Shown here one piece after another: positions 21,487 through 28,056 of a stretch of DNA of 32,450 bases (position 1 is the first letter of the stretch; every line of letters starts with the position of its first letter). A program made the position numbers and the translations under genes. This stretch comes from Chromobacterium piscinae (GTDB taxonomy: Bacteria > Pseudomonadota > Gammaproteobacteria > Burkholderiales > Chromobacteriaceae): positions 1 to 32,450 of the forward strand of contig NZ_JAJOHV010000034.1 in the NCBI RefSeq assembly GCF_021129175.1, in the 5' to 3' direction. Below the pieces are notes generated by a model. It saw only the letters and a list, made by a program, of their open reading frames with translations. It was not told the DNA's origin and made no database searches.

Positions 21487-21506
21487 AAATGGATTTGGCG
21501 GATGGC

Positions 21507-21515
21507 TGTGGATAA
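21507..21515 (-). promoter_or_regulatory. Perfect DnaA box 2
   Basis: A second exact TGTGGATAA; both copies share the longer GGCTGTGGATAA. The pair sits between the rng terminator and repeat copy A. Two perfect boxes in 40 bases are very unlikely by chance. Confidence 0.55.
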
Positions 21516-21544
21516 GTATTGTGTAGAGGGTAGGGTGCTGTACG

Positions 21545-21824
21545 GGTAGGGTGCGTCACCCCGCAGGGGCGACGCACCGGTTATGGTGTCGCGGCTTTGT
21601 GTCCGCTTCGCGGACGATTGATTTTGGTGCCGGTTCCGCCCGGCGGACGGGCCAGGGGCTGGGCGGCCAGCCCCTTGGCAATCCCAGGCCGCCCCAGCAG
21701 CGCGGCGAAACCCCGTCTCCAAACCCATTCCCAAAGAGCCGCCGGAACTAGCAGGGCGCTACGTCGAACAACCGGCGGCTTAAAACTTTGGGAATGGCTT
21801 CGAAGCCGGCTTGCGCTGATGGGG
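21545..21824 (-). repeat. Multi-hairpin intergenic repeat, copy A (inverted)
   Basis: About 280 bases, a reverse-oriented copy of the repeat at 25287, 26641 and 27056. Its large hairpin has an outer stem CCATTCCCAAAG (21725-21736) with CTTTGGGAATGG (21786-21797) and a middle stem AGCCGCCGG (21737-21745) with CCGGCGGCT (21772-21780). The inner stem is damaged by a deletion. A second hairpin GGGGCTGG/CCAGCCCC is at 21655-21674, a third GTCCGC/GCGGAC at 21601-21615, and a fourth GGTGCGTC.../...GACGCACC near 21551-21579. Copies share CTGATGGGG at the end that faces the AT-rich island. Confidence 0.85.
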
Positions 21825-21904
21825 ATATGGGGCACGTTGATTCGGTCTATTTGGTCACAATAATGCATGTTATTGTTTATAGTCGACTACCTTTTTCTAG
21901 AAAT

Positions 21905-23521
21905 TTACTTTACATGTTTTGATATGTAAATTTTTGGCGTTAAGTTGAATTTACTAACTTTCTTTCTCCATGTTTCGAGCGCTAATAAGAGTTGGATTGA
22001 GTTGAGGTCTGTTATTTTGGTAATCTCTTTTTCCAGAACCAGCCAGATGGCGACAGATTTTATAGGGTATTGCTCAGGGACCACATTTCTAGAGATCACT
22101 TCGATAGCTGTTGCTGACTGGTGAATGTTGTAAATAAGATCTACTTTTTTATCTGATATTTTCACGGATATGATTTCCTCATTCTTATAGAGGTCAGCTA
22201 TTTCTACCTGGTAGTTTCTTGCCCCCTTTTTTATTGATTTTATTGCAACAGTACTTCGGTCTAGCAATATGAATCCATTTTCATCCCTTTGTTTTTTGTT
22301 AAAATAAAACTCTCGATATGTTATTTTATCTAACTCAAATTCTTGTGTGGCGAGGGCGTCGGCATCTAGATTTTCTTGTGTAGCTCGTATCTCTTGCTCA
22401 CGAGATGCTTTCCATGATACATAGTCAGCCTCGTTTAAATCATCCATTTTTTGGATTGCTATGTTTTCCAGCGCTTTCTTCAGGTAATCCATAAATGTTT
22501 GATTGAATAAATACCACTCACCGTTTTTGAGTAAGTATTGGTTTCTCAGTCTGCAATCAATTAACTCTTTTACATCTTGACTGAAGACGGTCTCACTAGA
22601 TATTTTGACTTTTACTTCATTTATATCACTTATATTATTTTCCACTAAGTAGGATGCAATGTTTTCTATTTGAATCGCACTGCCAAGATCTTTTTTATCT
22701 TCTCGTTTTCCCCTGCCACTTTTTGTGAAAATCATATACTCACAGTCTGATGTTCTTACACAAATCTGTGTTCCATAGATTGGAAACTCATCAATTACAA
22801 TATCCCCATCCCCCTTTTTGATACTTTCCAATAGCTCAATATCAAGTTCATTAATAATGTTTTCGTCGCGAACAATTTCTAATTTGGGTAGTTTTATCAA
22901 CTCATCTTTGGAAAAGGATTCTCTAATCTTGTTAAACAAATCTGCAAGATCACTAGGGCTTCGTTCTGTATCTATTTGAATGGAGTCGGCAAGAATAATA
23001 TTCTTTTCTCCCCATTCAGATGCATCAACAGCTTTTATTTTGACATGATCTACTGACTCGCCAGGTTCGTAGCTGTTTGGGGAAAAATTTACATATGCGG
23101 ATACTTCATTTCTTTTTGATCCTGCGAAATATCGGCTTTTCTTCAAAATGGTAGTTTTTTCATCGCCAATTCGGATGGCAAAGTTTATACCAAAGTCGTG
23201 CTCTATATATTTATTTAAGTAAAAGTGTGCTTTTCCTAGACTGACTAGATATATGATGTCTGGTGAGTCCTCTTTGATGGAAATGAGAAGAGCAAAATGA
23301 AATATGTTATGTGGCTCGACTATACCGTCCTTGAAAAAAACATTATATGTGTTCCACCACCATATAGGATTACCTTTAACATTTTCTGAGAAATAAAAAG
23401 TCATTTTATAGCCATTATCATTTATTGTTTTTTGCTCTGCCAGCCCAACAGATGATATTTTCTCTAGCAATTGTTCAAGATATTCTGATCTCAATTTGTA
23501 TATGTTGTATGCGGTACTCAT
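21905..23521 (-). CDS. TIGR04141/DUF6119 family sporadically distributed protein
   Basis: A 538-residue, Lys/Glu/Ile-rich protein without signal peptide or membrane segments. I recognise the pattern of the TIGR04141 (DUF6119) family: N-terminal YNIYKLR, then SLGKAHFYLNKYIEHDFGINFAIRI, followed by SRYFAGSKRN, NSYEPGESVDHVKIKAVD and WGEKNIILADSIQ, then the hydrophobic SVAIWLVLEKE near the C-terminus. The family has no established biochemical function that I can state; it is patchily distributed and often found in accessory islands, which makes a defence role possible but unproven. AAAGGA lies before the ATG at 23521. It follows the DUF6765-type gene on the same strand after 216 bases. Codon use is strongly AT-biased, a mark of transfer. 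Confidence 0.7.
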   Translation of the reverse strand: MSTAYNIYKLRSEYLEQLLEKISSVGLAEQKTINDNGYKMTFYFSENVKGNPIWWWNTYNVFFKDGIVEPHNIFHFALLISIKEDSPDIIYLVSLGKAHFYLNKYIEHDFGINFAIRIGDEKTTILKKSRYFAGSKRNEVSAYVNFSPNSYEPGESVDHVKIKAVDASEWGEKNIILADSIQIDTERSPSDLADLFNKIRESFSKDELIKLPKLEIVRDENIINELDIELLESIKKGDGDIVIDEFPIYGTQICVRTSDCEYMIFTKSGRGKREDKKDLGSAIQIENIASYLVENNISDINEVKVKISSETVFSQDVKELIDCRLRNQYLLKNGEWYLFNQTFMDYLKKALENIAIQKMDDLNEADYVSWKASREQEIRATQENLDADALATQEFELDKITYREFYFNKKQRDENGFILLDRSTVAIKSIKKGARNYQVEIADLYKNEEIISVKISDKKVDLIYNIHQSATAIEVISRNVVPEQYPIKSVAIWLVLEKEITKITDLNSIQLLLALETWRKKVSKFNLTPKIYISKHVK

Positions 23522-23737
23522 AGCATTCCTTTCAAGGTTGATTGTTTGAGAATTGCTTTGATGTATGCGCAGGTAAGATTAATAAAGATAATTTTGTAAA
23601 TTAATCTTCATCCTAATAATTTTGAGGGAATTTCATCTATATTTGTTTTAGTATGAATTGTACGTTTTAAGCTAGTTTCCCTCTAGAAGTTTACGTTGCA
23701 ATACATGGCCGCATTAAATTGGAATTAAAAATCTATC

Positions 23738-24829
23738 TTAGGCAACAATGACTTGATGCGCAGGCAAGAGCCGTTTAAGCACATAGTGCCGATGGTATTC
23801 AGCTGCAGTGTGAAACAAATAAGCTGAACTACTAGTGATACTGGTTGCATTGCGATTTTCCATTGCCCCAATTAACTCTTCAGTCCAACTACGTGAATTA
23901 TAATCTTTACACAATTCCACTGGGCCAAGGTGCCCATTCTTCATTGCCACTTTCCATTGATCTGATCGTTCATAGTTATCGCCTTCATAGCAAAGTATAT
24001 TCTCCACAGTTGAAGCTATCTCATCAAACGAAATTCTTGGTGTTGAATATCCCTTTTCATTAGCGAAACAAGTAAAGTGATCATGCAATCTTCTACAGGC
24101 CTCTAAAAAATTAACAGTATTATCACGCTTATCCACATAGCCAAGTGCATGTTCAAATTCCCATTTCAAAAAAGGCATATCTGGTAAAGTATCTACTCCA
24201 CCATGCCCCAGACCTGAATTATTGGCAAATCCCGTTTTTATTCTTTCACTAACATTCCACAGCATTTCTTGCATTTTAGATGATGTATGACCATCCAAAG
24301 AAATAGTATCTTTTTCTACCTGGTTTAACGAAGATGTTGTTCCTGAGAAACCAAAATGGGAAAATGTATCTGCATATACATGTGCAGCAATCCCCAACAA
24401 CTGCAGATTAAATTTTTCATCCTTTTGCTTGATATGATGGTCTATCATCTCTTGGGCAATCTGACTATCCCTCTTGCACATGATACGTTCAAGATATTTC
24501 CCGTTACCCCCTCCGGGTAAAAAATGAAAAGGAACCCATACAAGTCTGCTGTCATCCGCAGTACTATTCATCGGATGTCTCGTGAGCTTATTTATCACAG
24601 ACTTCATTAAACCTACGTCTGCAGAAATATCATATGGACTATGTGCCGTTGCAATTCCTATGACGGCTTCACATGTATCACCATTTACAGTTCTAACCGA
24701 CCTCAATTCTTCATGATCTTGATCATCTACATATTGAGAGGCATGAGCGACAATTTCTGCATCATCGCGGGGAATTCCTGCAGCAGCTGCCATTGCATAA
24801 GTCCCATAATAGTGCATATCAATTTGCAT
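23738..24829 (-). CDS. DUF6765-type protein, zinc phospholipase C-like
   Basis: A 363-residue soluble protein without a signal peptide. It begins MQIDMHYYGTYAMAAAAGI and HASQYVDDQDHEE, the pattern of DUF6765. His6, the HASQYVDD segment, WVPFHFLPGG, DHHIK and IAAHVYADTFSHFGFSG form a set of His and Asp residues like those of the zinc-dependent phospholipase C/P1 nuclease fold (H-x3-D pattern in HVYAD); metal-dependent hydrolase activity is inferred from this. Substrate is unknown. A strong ribosome binding site (AGGAG, six bases ahead) marks the ATG at 24829. It may share a transcript with the DUF6119-type gene 216 bases downstream. Its composition is AT-rich like the rest of the island. Confidence 0.62.
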   Translation of the reverse strand: MQIDMHYYGTYAMAAAAGIPRDDAEIVAHASQYVDDQDHEELRSVRTVNGDTCEAVIGIATAHSPYDISADVGLMKSVINKLTRHPMNSTADDSRLVWVPFHFLPGGGNGKYLERIMCKRDSQIAQEMIDHHIKQKDEKFNLQLLGIAAHVYADTFSHFGFSGTTSSLNQVEKDTISLDGHTSSKMQEMLWNVSERIKTGFANNSGLGHGGVDTLPDMPFLKWEFEHALGYVDKRDNTVNFLEACRRLHDHFTCFANEKGYSTPRISFDEIASTVENILCYEGDNYERSDQWKVAMKNGHLGPVELCKDYNSRSWTEELIGAMENRNATSITSSSAYLFHTAAEYHRHYVLKRLLPAHQVIVA

Positions 24830-25081
24830 GCTTATCTCCTAGAATCATTTAACAAGCCAACTTTCTGTACCTGCAATACAGAAAATAAATAAATCCAATT
24901 GAAAACTGCAATATTCACCGCACAACTATTTCAGACACCGTTCATACAAGTCCAATCCATTATTAAACCCATCCCTGCTAAAATTACTTACATTCTTTGC
25001 ATATAAATGCTAGGACTACTTAATCACTGGTAATAAAGAAATCCTCATCGCTATAAACTCAGTATGCTGTGGAAAAATTAT
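24830..25081. other. AT-rich non-coding stretch upstream of the DUF6765-type gene
   Basis: About 250 AT-rich bases. It presumably carries the promoter for the island genes (minus strand), but many TATAAT-like sequences occur by composition alone, so none is assigned. No repeat or RNA was recognised. Confidence 0.4.
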
Positions 25082-25282
25082 CTAAAAAAATTCCGCACAG
25101 AAGTCTAAAAAGGTGGCCATCTCCACATAATAGTCCTCACAAAAACAGATTCCTAAAAAATAATACCCGTGCAAATACCTACAAGATATTTGACTAAAAA
25201 GCGTGTTTTCCTCGCAATGCTCGGGGTTAAATTCATCGCCATCACGTGAGTAAATATTTGTAGAACCGAACCAACTCGACAC
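25082..25282 (-). CDS. Small ORF or gene remnant at the island edge
   Basis: A 66-codon frame starting at GTG 25282, five bases inside repeat copy B. The product is rich in Cys, Phe and Tyr (GYYFLGICFCEDYYVEM) and matches no family I know. There is no evident ribosome binding site. It may be the 3' end of a gene cut by the repeat, or a chance frame in AT-rich DNA. Confidence 0.25.
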   Translation of the reverse strand: MSSWFGSTNIYSRDGDEFNPEHCEENTLFSQISCRYLHGYYFLGICFCEDYYVEMATFLDFCAEFF

Positions 25283-25286
25283 TATT

Positions 25287-25496
25287 CCCCATCAGCGCAA
25301 GCCGTCTCCGAAGTCATTCCCAAGGTCTTAAGCCGCCATTTGTTTGAGCGGGGCAACGTTAGTGCCCCGCGAGTTGGGCGGTGCCTTGGGAATGGATTTG
25401 GAGACGGGGTTTCGCCGCGCTGTTGGGGCGGCCTGGGGGTGCCGGGGGGCTGACCGCGCAGCCCCCTGGCCCGCCCTTTGGGCGGAATCAAAACGC
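25287..25496 (+). repeat. Multi-hairpin intergenic repeat, copy B (3'-truncated)
   Basis: About 210 bases starting CCCCATCAGCGCAAGCCG. Outer stem CATTCCCAAGG (25315-25325) pairs with CCTTGGGAATG (25384-25394). Inner stem GCGGGGCA (25348-25355) pairs with TGCCCCGC (25363-25370) around the loop ACGTTAG; in copies C and D the last pair is G-C, a compensatory change. A second hairpin GGGGGCTG/CAGCCCCC and a third CCGCCC/GGGCGG follow. The two last hairpins of the full element are missing. Confidence 0.85.
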
Positions 25497-25519
25497 TTCA
25501 GAGCAACAAGTTTTGGCCG

Positions 25520-25543
25520 CAATGATTAGCAGTCAAATCATTG
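25520..25543. promoter_or_regulatory. Inverted repeat CAATGATT...AATCATTG
   Basis: Perfect eight-base arms (25520-25527, 25536-25543) with an eight-base spacer, in a mid-GC stretch between repeat B and the structured leader. A possible operator for the downstream transcript. Confidence 0.3.
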
Positions 25544-25684
25544 ATTACGCAGCAATACTTAGCACATTGACATGTAGATGGAGGCGGATTAGCGTGAGGG
25601 TTCTCTCAAAGCTCCAGCTGCACCCGCCCAGTTCTGGCGGTATCATTACGCCTTCTTTCTAGGCGTGCATTCGCACGTCGCAAG

Positions 25685-25760
25685 AGATCAAGGGGGGTGT
25701 CGGGTATCCGCAAGGACCCGGACGGCCTGGAGCCGTTGAGAGCGCCCCCACCCCGATACG
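25685..25760 (+). ncRNA. Structured leader, possible three-way junction
   Basis: GGGGTG (within 25692-25699) can pair with CACCCC (25749-25754). Inside are two hairpins: GGGTATCC-GCAA-GGACCC (25702-25719, GNRA tetraloop, two-base bulge) and ACGGC-CTGGA-GCCGT (25722-25736). This would give a compact three-stem RNA just upstream of the 32-codon ORF and the BRO-N-like gene. It matches no riboswitch class I recognise. A cis-regulatory role is inferred from position only. Confidence 0.4.
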
Positions 25761-25795
25761 GTGGAACCCTCTCTCAAACTCTCCAGGAGGCCATC

Positions 25796-25894
25796 ATGGC
25801 CATGATCAATCGTACTGCTGCGACACTTCTTCTCATCGGTTCACCCCTAGCTTGCTCCCAAGTAGCCCATTCACTTGCGGAGGCCCAGCCATGA
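25796..25894 (+). CDS. 32-residue leader or lipoprotein-like peptide, coupled to the BRO-N-like gene
   Basis: The ATG at 25796 has a perfect AGGAGG five bases ahead, a better site than most genes here. The peptide begins MAMINRTAATLLLIGSPLAC and ends SLAEAQP; the stretch L-A-C after a hydrophobic run resembles a short lipoprotein signal. Its TGA overlaps the ATG of the next gene (ATGA at 25891-25894), so the two are probably translationally coupled. It may be a leader peptide controlling the downstream gene, or a small exported peptide. Confidence 0.5.
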   Translation: MAMINRTAATLLLIGSPLACSQVAHSLAEAQP

Positions 25895-26559
25895 ACCACC
25901 ACCTCGACCTCTCCGTAAACCTCCCCCTCCGCCTCGACTACGCCAAGAACTTCCCGCTGCGCGTCATCCGCCGCGAGGAGGGCTTCTGGTTTGTCGCCGC
26001 CGAAATCGCCGCTTCGATGAAGCAGGAAGTGGAAGATCTGCTGGCAACGCTGGAGCAACCGGCTGGCCGCCTGTTGCTGCTAGCCGGGGAAGATGAACCG
26101 GTGCTGTGCTTGTCCGAAGGCGAGCTGGACGAGGTGGTCAGGAGGATCAAGAAACCCGGCGCGCGGCGGTTGCGGCGCTGGTGGCAGGAGGAGACGCGGC
26201 CGGCTTTGCTGCATGAAGGCGGGCCGGCCACCACGGCGGAGAGCCTGCATCTGGCGCTGGCCTTGGCCGCCGAGGCGGCGCAGCAGGTGGGGCGGGCGGT
26301 GATGGAGGCGGTGCTGCGCGGCCCTGGGCCTTGGCAGCATTCGCGCTGGGTGGTGGCGCTGGATTACGAGCGCCACAACAAACAGCGCTGGCCGCACGGC
26401 AAGCTGATCGGCCTCACCAGCTCCGTCGCCACGCTGGAAGGCTTGGCGGAGCTGATCGCCGAACCGGGCAGGATGCCGGTGAACAATACCGACCTGGTCA
26501 AACTGGCTTCCGCCTGCCATTTACGGCTGGCGGAGAGGATGGGACGGATCGCCGGTTGA
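25891..26559 (+). CDS. BRO-N-like (phage antirepressor-type) protein
   Basis: A 222-residue basic protein. Residues 20-80 (FPLRVIRREEGFWFVAAEIAASMK, then LCLSEGELDEVVRRIKKPGARRLRRWW) resemble the BRO-N/P22 antirepressor N-terminal domain, with F-W-x-A-x-x-I and a basic helix ending R-R-W-W. The second half has alanine-rich helices and no domain I know. BRO-N proteins bind DNA and are frequent in phages and accessory regions; function here is unknown. GGAGG lies seven bases before the ATG at 25891, and the start overlaps the preceding small ORF. The last 46 bases of the gene are duplicated 414 bases downstream. Confidence 0.55.
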   Translation: MNHHLDLSVNLPLRLDYAKNFPLRVIRREEGFWFVAAEIAASMKQEVEDLLATLEQPAGRLLLLAGEDEPVLCLSEGELDEVVRRIKKPGARRLRRWWQEETRPALLHEGGPATTAESLHLALALAAEAAQQVGRAVMEAVLRGPGPWQHSRWVVALDYERHNKQRWPHGKLIGLTSSVATLEGLAELIAEPGRMPVNNTDLVKLASACHLRLAERMGRIAG

Positions 26560-26567
26560 TCCAGCAG

Positions 26568-26599
26568 GAGCGCGATGCCGAAACGGGTCGCGCTTTTTT
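26568..26599 (+). terminator. Rho-independent terminator of the BRO-N-like gene
   Basis: AGCGCGA (26569-26575) pairs with TCGCGCT (26588-26594), with an inner CCG-AAA-CGG, followed by six T. It is duplicated at 26982-27013. Confidence 0.85.
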
Positions 26600-26640
26600 A
26601 TTGGCTTTATGGCAAACGCTCAATCGATAGCCACCGTGTC

Positions 26641-26926
26641 CCCCCTTCAGCGCGCGCCGGTCAAAAATCGCCCAGCCAGGTTTTAAGCCGCCGCCTGTTT
26701 GAGCGGGGCGACGTTAGCGCCCCGCGAGTTCGGCGGCGCCTGGCTGGGTGGTTTTTGAGCGGGGTTTCGCGCGCTGTGGGGCGGCCTGGGGTTGAAAGGG
26801 GGCTGGCCGCGCAGCCCCCTTTCCCGTCCGACGGGCGGAACCGGCATCAAAATCCATCGTCCGCACAGCGGACACCGCCCCCCCCCCAAGCGGTGCGTCG
26901 CCCCTTTGGGGTGACGCACCCTACCC
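26641..26926 (+). repeat. Multi-hairpin intergenic repeat, copy C
   Basis: About 286 bases. The outer stem is TCAAAAATCGCCCAGCCAGG (26661-26680) with CCTGGCTGGGTGGTTTTTGA (26739-26758), 20 pairs including two G-T wobbles. Its sequence is wholly unlike the CATTCCCAA stem of copies A, B and D, yet both arms are replaced together. Inner stem GCGGGGCG/CGCCCCGC (26703-26710, 26718-26725) has the same ACGTTAG loop. Then GAAAGGGGGCTG (26794-26805) pairs with CAGCCCCCTTTC (26812-26823), followed by CGTCCGC/GCGGAC and GGTGCGTC/GACGCACC hairpins. Confidence 0.88.
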
Positions 26927-26927
26927 G

Positions 26928-26973
26928 CTGCCATTTGCGGCTGGCGGAGCGGATGGGACGGATCGCCGGTTGA
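26928..26973 (+). pseudogene. Duplicated C-terminal fragment of the BRO-N-like gene
   Basis: These 46 bases repeat the end of the BRO-N-like gene (26514-26559) with two differences and would encode CHLRLAERMGRIAG and the stop. It has no start of its own and is a by-product of a tandem duplication that also copied the terminator and the repeat. Confidence 0.8.
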
Positions 26974-26981
26974 TCCAGCAG

Positions 26982-27013
26982 GAGCGCGATGCCAAAACGG
27001 GTCGCGCTTTTTT
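26982..27013 (+). terminator. Duplicate terminator
   Basis: AGCGCGA...TCGCGCT followed by T residues, a copy of the terminator at 26568-26599 with one base changed in the loop. Confidence 0.75.
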
Positions 27014-27055
27014 ATTGGCTTTATGGCAAACGCTCAACCGATAGCCACCCTGTCC

Positions 27056-27340
27056 CCCCATCAGCGCGCGCCGGCTTCAAAGCCATTCCCAATGGTTTTA
27101 AGACGCCGGTTGTTCGACGCGGGGCGACGTTAGCGCCCCGCTAGTTCCGGCGGCTCCTTGGGAATGGGTTTGGAGACGGGGCTTCGCCGCGCTGCTGGGG
27201 TCGCCTAGGGTTGCAAGGGGGCTGGCGACACAGCCCCCTTGCCTGCCTGGCGGGCAGCCCCGCCATGAAAACCATCATCCGCGCAGCGGACACAACACCC
27301 AAAACGGTGCGTCGCCCCTATGGGGTGACGCACCCTACCC
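27056..27340 (+). repeat. Multi-hairpin intergenic repeat, copy D
   Basis: About 285 bases starting CCCCATCAGCGCGCGCC. Outer stem CCATTCCCAA (27083-27092) pairs with TTGGGAATGG (27158-27167). Middle stem CGCCGG pairs with CCGGCG. Inner stem GCGGGGCG (27119-27126) pairs with CGCCCCGC (27134-27141) around ACGTTAG. Next hairpin GCAAGGGGGCTG (27213-27224) pairs with CAGCCCCCTTGC (27231-27242). CTGCC/GGCAG, TCCGC/GCGGA and GGTGCGTCGCCCC/GGGGTGACGCACC hairpins follow. It ends in CCCTACCC like copy C. Confidence 0.88.
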
Positions 27341-27558
27341 GGACAGCCCCCCCTGCCTGGCGGGCAGCCCCGCCGTGAAAATCATTCGTCCGCACAGCGG
27401 ACACCGCACCCAAAACGGTGCGTCGCCCCGGCGGGGGGACGCACCCTACCCGGACAGCCTCCCTGCCTGGCGGGCAGCCCCGCCATGAAAATCATCATCC
27501 GCGCAGCGGACACCGCACCCCAAACGGTGCGTCGCCCCGGCGGGGGGACGCACCCTAC
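27242..27558 (+). repeat. Three tandem units of about 110 bp from the 3' part of the repeat
   Basis: Units begin at 27242, 27352 and 27462, each with CCTGCCTGGCGGGCAG, then GCCATGAAAA- or GCCGTGAAAA-like sequence, a TCCGC/GCGGA hairpin and a terminal GGTGCGTC hairpin. The first unit is the end of copy D. The last ends three bases before the stop of the DUF2867 gene, so it also sits where a terminator for that gene would be expected. Confidence 0.88.
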
Positions 27559-27561
27559 GCC

Positions 27562-28056
27562 TCATCCCAATGCCGCCGCCATCCGCCTCATGCTCGCCGC
27601 CACAATCGCATGATGAAACGGCGTCACCACCGTCAGATACGTCCTCCCCAACAAATTATGCGTCCGCACCAGCGTGCTCACCTCCAGCCGCTCCGGCCGC
27701 CACTGCAACACCACCCGGAAATCCAGATGGCGGTCGTCTTCGCCAAGCACCGCGACATGCTCTCCCAGATGCAACACGCGGAACACGCCCAGCTGCTGGC
27801 CCACATGATATGGCTCAACCGAAGAGGAAGCGGGTCGGGCGGTTTTCAGGCCCAGCGGCGACACCAGCCGGTCGCGCAGCCGCATCAGCGCGCGGGCCCA
27901 GGGCGGCATCGTGGCGGAGAAGACGCGCAACAAGCTGGCTGCGTCGGCCGTCGGCGCGCCGGGCGGCAGCGGGACGCTGCGGCGGTCCTGCCAGGGATAG
28001 CGGCCGGTTTCCTGGACTAGCAGCGGAATGTCGGAAAAATCGTATTGGGCAGACAC
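27562..28056 (-). CDS. DUF2867 domain-containing protein
   Basis: About 164 residues, matching the DUF2867 pattern (EPYHVGQQLGVFRVLHLGEHVAVLGEDDRHLDFRVV, then LVRTHNLLGRTYLTVVTPFHHAIV near the C-terminus). Function is unknown; the fold may resemble START/SRPBCC-like ligand-binding proteins, which is an inference. GTG at 28056 is chosen because GGGAGAGG lies four to ten bases ahead; an ATG at 28128 would add 24 unconserved residues and nearly overlap the upstream gene. It lies 75 bases after the AraC-type gene on the same strand, so it is probably in the same operon. The end abuts the tandem repeat. Confidence 0.72.
   Translation of the reverse strand: MSAQYDFSDIPLLVQETGRYPWQDRRSVPLPPGAPTADAASLLRVFSATMPPWARALMRLRDRLVSPLGLKTARPASSSVEPYHVGQQLGVFRVLHLGEHVAVLGEDDRHLDFRVVLQWRPERLEVSTLVRTHNLLGRTYLTVVTPFHHAIVAASMRRMAAALG

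Follow-up and report, generated by a model that had tools for sequence, protein, structure and literature searches.

A dispersed intergenic repeat of Chromobacterium with a covarying fold, and its possible role as the paired ends of exchangeable gene cassettes

A 32,450-nt stretch of Chromobacterium piscinae DNA (the window) contains four copies, designated A to D, of a repeat of about 260 bases. Members of this family lie in scattered intergenic positions in Chromobacterium and related bacteria, and their shape is kept while their letters change. We tentatively favor the reading that gene cassettes, exchangeable and non-autonomous, have these repeats as their two ends, which would be recognized through a single-strand fold. 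The main rival is that they are copies of a multicopy non-coding RNA. Loci are referred to by L numbers and genomes by G numbers, G000 being the genome of the window.

Fold and covariation of the repeat

Each repeat end is about 260 nt long. Going outward, an inner stretch (about 25 nt, conserved) is followed by a folded core (P0 to P3), hairpins P4 and P5, and a terminal palindrome, P6 (TCCGCGNAGCGGA). In the alignment, the letters of the long stem P1 (about 24 pairs) vary freely while its pairing stays; P2 is short, and P3 is a hairpin. The unpaired motifs are fixed: TTTTAAG, TGTTYGA facing AGTT, the loop ACGNTAG, and GGGGTTTCGC after P1. Two stem types were found, type 1 with arms ATTCCC...GGGAAT and type 2 with other complementary sequences. 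The conserved stretch, the approximately 25 nt just inside position 1, comes in two versions, which mostly track the two stem types. Comparison also suggests an outer stem, P0, in which CCCC-CAGCGC would pair with GCGCTG-GGGG and, in G040, GCCCG-GACGC with GCGTC-CGGGC; no P0 pair was significant in the phylogeny-aware test described below.

Covariation was scored in alignment A1, which was made with MAFFT and contained 25 of 31 non-redundant copies; the six copies with an insertion or deletion in the core, window copy A included, were left out. In A1, 96.5% of the cells pair, compared with 77.0% after shuffling, and both sides change in 26 of the 39 pairs. The covariation score was 0.517, compared with 0.151 for shuffled alignments (none of 500 reached the observed score) and at most 0.125 when the pairing was slid; these margins exclude chance. 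The shuffle and slide controls take no account of the kinship of the copies; a tree-based test does. For this home-made, R-scape-like test, the substitutions in 93 sequences were re-placed on a FastTree tree to give 20 simulated alignments. The 93-sequence set leaves out L040 (a duplicate of L167), L034, copies with a 30-nt insert, and copies that were too short. At a threshold of E 0.05, the test called 17 of 9870 column pairs significant, and all 17 were among the 44 pairs of the structure, with none outside it. The remaining 27 structure pairs, those of P0 included, were not significant. A preliminary description of the window had argued from compensatory changes that the pairing is selected, and had proposed covariation beyond phylogeny as the test; the argument held, since every significant pair lay in the predicted structure under a phylogeny-aware null.

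The mismatches within the stems differ between the two strands. In a plain MAFFT alignment of the 93 sequences, 252 mismatched cells were G·T and 45 were A·C, these cells not being independent, because the copies are related. When one uncertain isolated pair, which contributes 56 of the 252, was omitted, the counts were 196 and 45. G·T was ahead in 31 of the 44 pairs and A·C in 5, with 8 ties. An alignment fitted to the covariance model gave 210 G·T and 42 A·C, with 49 of the 210 coming from the isolated pair; it took in the best 97 among 108 model matches (95 of them distinct), the other 11 being antisense to listed copies. The excess of G·T over A·C indicates that one defined strand, read from the inner to the outer end, folds. 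The preliminary description had offered RNA or a DNA cruciform, and the asymmetry narrows this choice: equal strands in a symmetric cruciform would give equal numbers of G·T and A·C, and the cruciform was therefore rejected as the main form. Judged from the sequences, the selected form fits better with RNA or single-stranded DNA, and with these two alike.

Each of the four window copies was recovered by an iterated profile and a covariance model, and all of the stem arms quoted in the preliminary description were found in the sequence. Copy A (21600..21824, minus strand) begins at 21824 and runs leftward, whereas B, C, and D run rightward. It matched profile positions 1–234 and gave a covariance model score of 85.8 bits at 21705–21811, and its outer end bears the P6 palindrome GTCCGC-TTC-GCGGAC. 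Copy B (25287..25494, plus strand) matched profile positions 1–208 and gave 116.2 bits at 25300–25415; its outer part ends early, after P4, as it does in L142:5979, L159:7024, and L168:5467. Copy C (26642..26874, plus strand), which has a type 2 stem and a P1–P3 core at 26655–26770, and copy D (27056..27292, plus strand), which has a type 1 stem, were found with both profile and model, at 125.9 and 110.8 bits, respectively. In copy A, the model match spans just 107 nt and an 11-column gap covers the 5′ arm and loop of the inner hairpin. Because this hairpin is damaged, copy A gives no support for the inner stem.

Although all four copies are real, C and D are not independent loci but lie in a tandem duplication. 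The 128-bp flank to the left of C (26514..26641, plus strand), which comprises the 3′ end of a Bro-N gene and a terminator-like hairpin, is 96% identical to the flank to the left of D (26928..27055, plus strand), whereas C and D themselves are only 79% identical; probably, one of the two copies was replaced while the duplication arose or at a later time. The flank is single at the same place in L165 (G015) and L176 (G006), and thus the duplication is not common to those genomes.

The search of related genomes proposed earlier uncovered a dispersed family. By blastn, copy C matched 33 places in its own genome, and matches were found in 33 of 61 genomes, its own included. A covariance model of the core (R1; 116 positions), built from 25 sequences, matched in 12 of 300 genomes sampled from the order. 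Matches above 60 bits were in the same family and one other family, f5, and four further genomes had single matches of 29–36 bits. This search was strict, with 12 candidates scored per genome, and it missed G010, G022, and G036, which were positive by blastn. In five genomes for which matches were counted, there were 11–37 model matches per genome, a count that takes in antisense and weak matches. Over 80 named rng loci (1.54 Mb), the model gave one match, in Pseudogulbenkiania ferrooxidans. The rng gene product of the window is 99% identical to that of C. vaccinii MWU205, and the C. vaccinii rng locus had no model match, containing only outer-end modules and other sequence.

No described family with this layout was known to the preliminary description, and our searches agree: they turned up no match to a known family of repeats or RNAs. 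At the curated (gathering) score, Rfam 15 gave no match in the window, in copy C alone, or in one G040 copy; there were sub-threshold matches only. Two of these were to ROSE_3, with a cut-off of 43, at 26569–26614 (27.5 bits) and 26983–27028 (22.1 bits), in the terminator-like hairpin after the Bro-N gene; they are probably due to chance. Plasmids and phages gave no blastn match. Among 2.9 million viral contigs, two IMG/VR contigs fit the motif pattern and none fit a stricter pattern. A phage or plasmid origin was rejected on these results. By eye, one chromosomal gene is the common neighbor of loci L188, L162, and L140. No description of the repeat family was found in the open PubMed Central (PMC) literature, a scope outside which most subscription papers lie. 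The covariation is as strong as in functional RNA, and the repeat matched no Rfam family and none of the papers searched.

Facing copies and the genes between them

The arrangement of copies was examined in four genomes of one or two contigs, using 59 positions of about 50 bits or more, with one antisense match excluded. There were 14 neighboring pairs within 5 kb, compared with 0.9 expected at random. Eight of these pairs were divergent, five were on the same strand, and one was convergent. In divergent pairs, the inner ends face each other over a short gap or over genes. Among 13 close pairs picked by hand, the gap between facing copies was 95–182 bp in 10, and a type 1 end was combined with a type 2 end in 8 (by eye). 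The L144 pair, whose two copies are 11.7 kb apart, was set aside.

In the window, A and B form a divergent pair around a 3.5-kb island with a GC content of 36% in a region of 67% GC; copies A, B, and C bound variable DNA. The conserved inner stretches of the left end (GACCGAATCAACGTGCCCCATAT on the minus strand, 21825..21851) and of the right end (GTAGAACCGAACCAACTCG..., 25260..25286, plus strand) were identified by comparing the upstream 70 nt of 64 copies. Between them are genes for a DUF6119-family protein of 538 aa (21905..23521, minus strand; Pfam PF19614, E 3e-27) and a DUF6765-family protein of 363 aa (23738..24829, minus strand; Pfam PF20551, E 5e-88). Neither had a PADLOC match, and the DUF6765 protein has weak similarity to zinc-dependent phospholipase C (PF00882, below cut-off).

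This rng locus has equal flanks and different content in three genomes. Where the window has the DUF6119 and DUF6765 genes, G015 has a gene for a RAYT (repetitive extragenic palindrome [REP]-associated tyrosine transposase) and a deaminase gene, and G006 has a 155-aa open reading frame and a deaminase gene. Both G015 and G006 retain copy A on the rng side and, on the right side, copy C and the Bro-N gene or its remnant. The cytidine-deaminase-domain genes match the PADLOC model dCTPase, with E 3e-170 in G015 (L165 5763–7259) and 2e-161 in G006 (L176 7146–8732). In a third species, a gene matching this model lies between facing copies in G009 (L159 4861–6471; E 4.5e-166). We take the model to represent anti-phage dCTP deaminases. 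At a second locus, L142 and L168 have both flanks and a RAYT gene in common, and the rest is different; a gene (L168 5819–7054) that combines a HATPase with a STAS-like (DUF4325) part and partially matches DrmA lies between the facing copies. Facing copies surround species-variable DNA at the rng locus (in G000, G015, and G006) and at L142/L168.

Turnover of copies and candidate partner genes

Comparison of the same sites among genomes revealed differences in the presence, orientation, and composition of copies. The L149 site bears a single copy in G000, G012, and G006, and a different, oppositely oriented copy in G015; G017 has a lone P6 palindrome, G007 has no copy, and G009, G014, and G016 have approximately seven bases between two apparent stop codons. 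These sequences fit a pair that lost either partner, beside sites that were apparently never occupied. Five genomes have facing pairs at the L140 site, with three different centers among them (G000; G012 and G017; G007 and G016); a lone P6, GAATCCGCGTAGCGGATTC, stands at this site in G015, and reduced remains are found there in G003, G004, and G008. The L148-site copies of G007 and G014 have their outer half in common and differ throughout the P1–P3 half, which points to exchange between copies. In G015, the exact P6 core was counted 24 times (once in the reversed control), and a longer form of P6 occurs 17 times in G000 (control 0). A lone P6 is plausibly, but not certainly, a scar of loss. 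An inserted palindrome of some 30 nt (around GTGCGAATCTTTGATTCGCTCAGC) is found in P3 of some copies and near P4 of others (L188 12895–12935; L171 5296–5443; L169 4920–5680; L180); it may be a smaller mobile palindrome in its own right, with hairpins as its target.

From 21500 to 27600, there were 11 terminator-like sites, compared with 7.2 expected (sd 2.4). P6 hairpins make up five of the 11; each has T-rich sequence after it on the strand running into the copy from outside (21600–21616, 26858–26874, 27276–27292, 27387–27403, and 27496–27512). Because P6 resembles a terminator when it is read inward, shielding from read-through is possible. Some of these palindromes lie in an array of repeated outer-end modules after copy D (27293..27558, plus strand), which was read directly and with the profile and consists of P5, P6, and a GTAG-type REP hairpin (GGTGCGTCGCCCC...GGGGACGCACCCTAC); profile positions 169–233 matched at 27340–27402 and again at 27452–27511.

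The inward-read P6 hairpins are what an insulator would need, and they bear on another rival explanation, that the islands are immobile. Old mosaic repeats would then serve as homology for gene exchange, and their structure would be kept for a role such as the shielding of nearby genes from read-through or the protection of mRNA ends. The presence of the same loci in many species, the exchange of content between fixed flanks, and chimeras resembling gene conversion (C versus D; L226 versus L229) are all consistent with this explanation. We nevertheless regard it as improbable, because it leaves unexplained why copies prefer to face each other in pairs, why the internal-loop motifs are invariant, and why the intergenic sites of G009, G014, and G016 at L149 look as if they had never been occupied.

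Two genes recur near the copies, and the counts of nearness for both are lower bounds. A RAYT gene starts within 0.8 kb of a copy start in at least 8 of 14 matches in the genus, in 7 of these at 462–570 bp. This proximity would be expected if the repeat were an oversized member of the REP/REPIN group (REPIN, REP doublet forming a hairpin), in which the RAYT (TnpA_REP, a Y1 HUH nuclease) moves folded single-stranded DNA and the facing pairs would be giant REPINs. Y1 enzymes read one strand, a property that would suit the G·T asymmetry. Several copies have a GTAG-type REP hairpin next to them; of 64 copies, 11 have GTAG and 4 have GTGG in their inner edge (−35 to −20). One such hairpin, with GTAG at its foot, adjoins copy A (GTAGGGTGCGTCACCCCGCAGGGGCGACGCACC; 21546..21578, plus strand; read directly) and resembles the GTAG class in the main text of PMC3733652; the main text of PMC6006769 describes the REPtron layout. 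We consider it quite unlikely that the family belongs to this group: G005, G006, G008, G009, G017, and G040 all hold copies and have no PF01797 match at E ≤ 0.001, and the stem foot of the core has no GTAG or CGTC tag. Moreover, a GTAG-type arm lies between the RAYT gene and the copy in L142 and L168, and a whole hairpin of this type lies between the copies in L160, so that the RAYT may have a target of its own.

The second gene, the Bro-N-like gene of the window (25891..26559, plus strand), matched Pfam PF02498 below the cut-off (E 0.002). Bro-N-like matches lay within 3.5 kb of a copy in at least 25 of the 35 checked in relatives and the own genome; 42 matches were listed, and second fragments and minor ones were left out. 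Apart from one weak match, they were confined to Chromobacterium. Bro-N was rejected as the autonomous gene, with matches limited to two genera and copies present without it in G040. Because genomes with copies exist that lack each of these genes, neither RAYT nor Bro-N is a general mover.

Several results weigh against the reading of the repeats as cassette ends. Most of the 59 copies have no close neighbor, and in G040 and G089, which belong to another family, 8 of 10 loci examined hold one copy; the exceptions are a tandem repeat at L235 and a full copy facing a partial copy at L237. Nor does P6 mark the element cleanly: of its 24 occurrences in G015, 14 have a model match within 400 bp and 10 have none that near; one of these 10 is the L140 site, and one is the L148-site copy without its core. 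Neither an insertion with a clean junction nor a target duplication was found at the sites compared. The six copy-bearing genomes without a PF01797 match count here as well, and of the two enzyme-gene candidates compared, RAYT and Bro-N, neither was found in all copy-bearing genomes. Finally, exchange between fixed flanks is explicable by homologous recombination without mobility.

The mostly solitary copies of G040 and G089 are in keeping with the main rival, a multicopy structured non-coding RNA. According to this explanation, the inner-to-outer strand would be transcribed, the RNA would be the selected product, and the spread of the copies and their variable neighbors would be incidental. 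The invariant loop motifs and the G·T excess on one strand suit an RNA. The conserved unit in the G040 and G089 copies (L233–L242) is about 40 nt longer upstream, unlike that in the Chromobacterium copies, and ATAC is found approximately 22–25 nt before P0 in 10 of 11 copies (TATAC in 6). By eye, five of six single copies in the own genome follow an apparent gene 3′ end on the same strand. We nonetheless hold the RNA explanation to be somewhat unlikely. The one G040 copy scanned had no sigma-70-type promoter and no terminator-like site, and the inner stretches of the Chromobacterium copies had no visible common promoter; the variable presence between close species and the recombination between copies would be unusual for a needed RNA gene. 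If the core is such an RNA, it would represent a new structured RNA class with the 11–37 model matches per genome given above for five genomes.

The favored reading as cassette ends draws on the covariation beyond phylogeny, the strand asymmetry, the clustering of copies in facing pairs, the differing content at the rng and L142/L168 loci, the filled and empty states of the L149 site, and the lone P6 in G015 and in G017 at sites that are filled in other genomes. If the repeats are such ends, the one-strand fold would be recognized by an enzyme acting in trans, which would have moved the ends. Later turnover would occur by recombination between copies and between terminal palindromes, with a lone P6 left as a scar of loss. 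A Y1 (RAYT) transposase would be the best candidate for the enzyme, only in those genomes that have one. The pairs would then provide a handle on the movement of small defense-gene islands in Chromobacteriaceae, for which no mover gene was found in all genomes. A bolder proposal, which we think unlikely, is that the repeats define a new kind of mobile cassette, whose two long ends are recognized by a conserved fold with fixed internal-loop motifs, as RNA or single-stranded DNA, and whose arbitrary genes, anti-phage genes included, are swapped by an enzyme.

Comparison with known systems

Like REPs, bacterial interspersed mosaic elements (BIMEs), and REPINs, the repeats are multicopy intergenic palindromes that are often in inverted pairs, are mosaic, and in some genomes lie near a RAYT gene. 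Unlike them, the repeats are approximately 260 nt long, with nested stems, invariant internal loops, and other genes between the pairs. The 116-position core differs from REPs and REPINs in carrying neither tag at its stem foot, the GTAG of the inner edge and of the separate hairpins lying elsewhere, and the six genomes named above differ in having copies without a match to a cognate RAYT. The main texts of PMC3733652, which treats the GTAG and CGTC repeat classes and equates CGTC-1 with dRS3, and of PMC6006769, which treats REPtrons and BIMEs, do not include Chromobacterium.

The neisserial dRS3 and intergenic mosaic elements have the same order of parts and the ATTCCC...GGGAAT arms seen in type 1 copies. 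In our repeats, however, these arms are about 60–70 nt apart, around P2–P3, and they are replaced in type 2 copies, and dRS3 was rejected as an identification on both grounds.

In integron attC sites, too, one strand folds, sequence varies while shape is kept, and cassettes are exchanged. The attC sites carry an inverse core, RYYYAAC, and a core, GTTRRRY; no such box pair was seen by eye among the invariant columns of A1. The copies here occur as facing pairs instead of tandem arrays. Palindrome-associated elements and the ends of IS200/IS605 have folded ends around cargo and possible action in trans, as would the repeats. The two ends here are mutually inverted, unlike those of IS200/IS605, and several copy-bearing genomes have no PF01797 match. 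Elements of these kinds insert on the 3′ side of a short fixed target and leave no duplication; no clean, recent insertion of the repeats turned up at the sites compared. In DDE-type miniature inverted-repeat transposable elements (MITEs), terminal inverted repeats go with a target duplication of fixed length; the ends here are inverted, and at the L149 site no duplication was visible, the junctions being too diverged.

The bacterial MITEs and mosaic repeats such as ERIC, BOX, NEMIS, and RUP (in part in the main text of PMC3733652) are likewise 70–300 bp long, intergenic, foldable, non-coding, and dispersed. The repeats described here differ from them in having a strand-specific, covarying fold, fixed loops, two end types, and facing pairs around genes. 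The ordinary frame for the family is that of bacterial intergenic repeats, from which it is set apart by its strand-specific fold with fixed loops and by its facing pairs around exchangeable genes.

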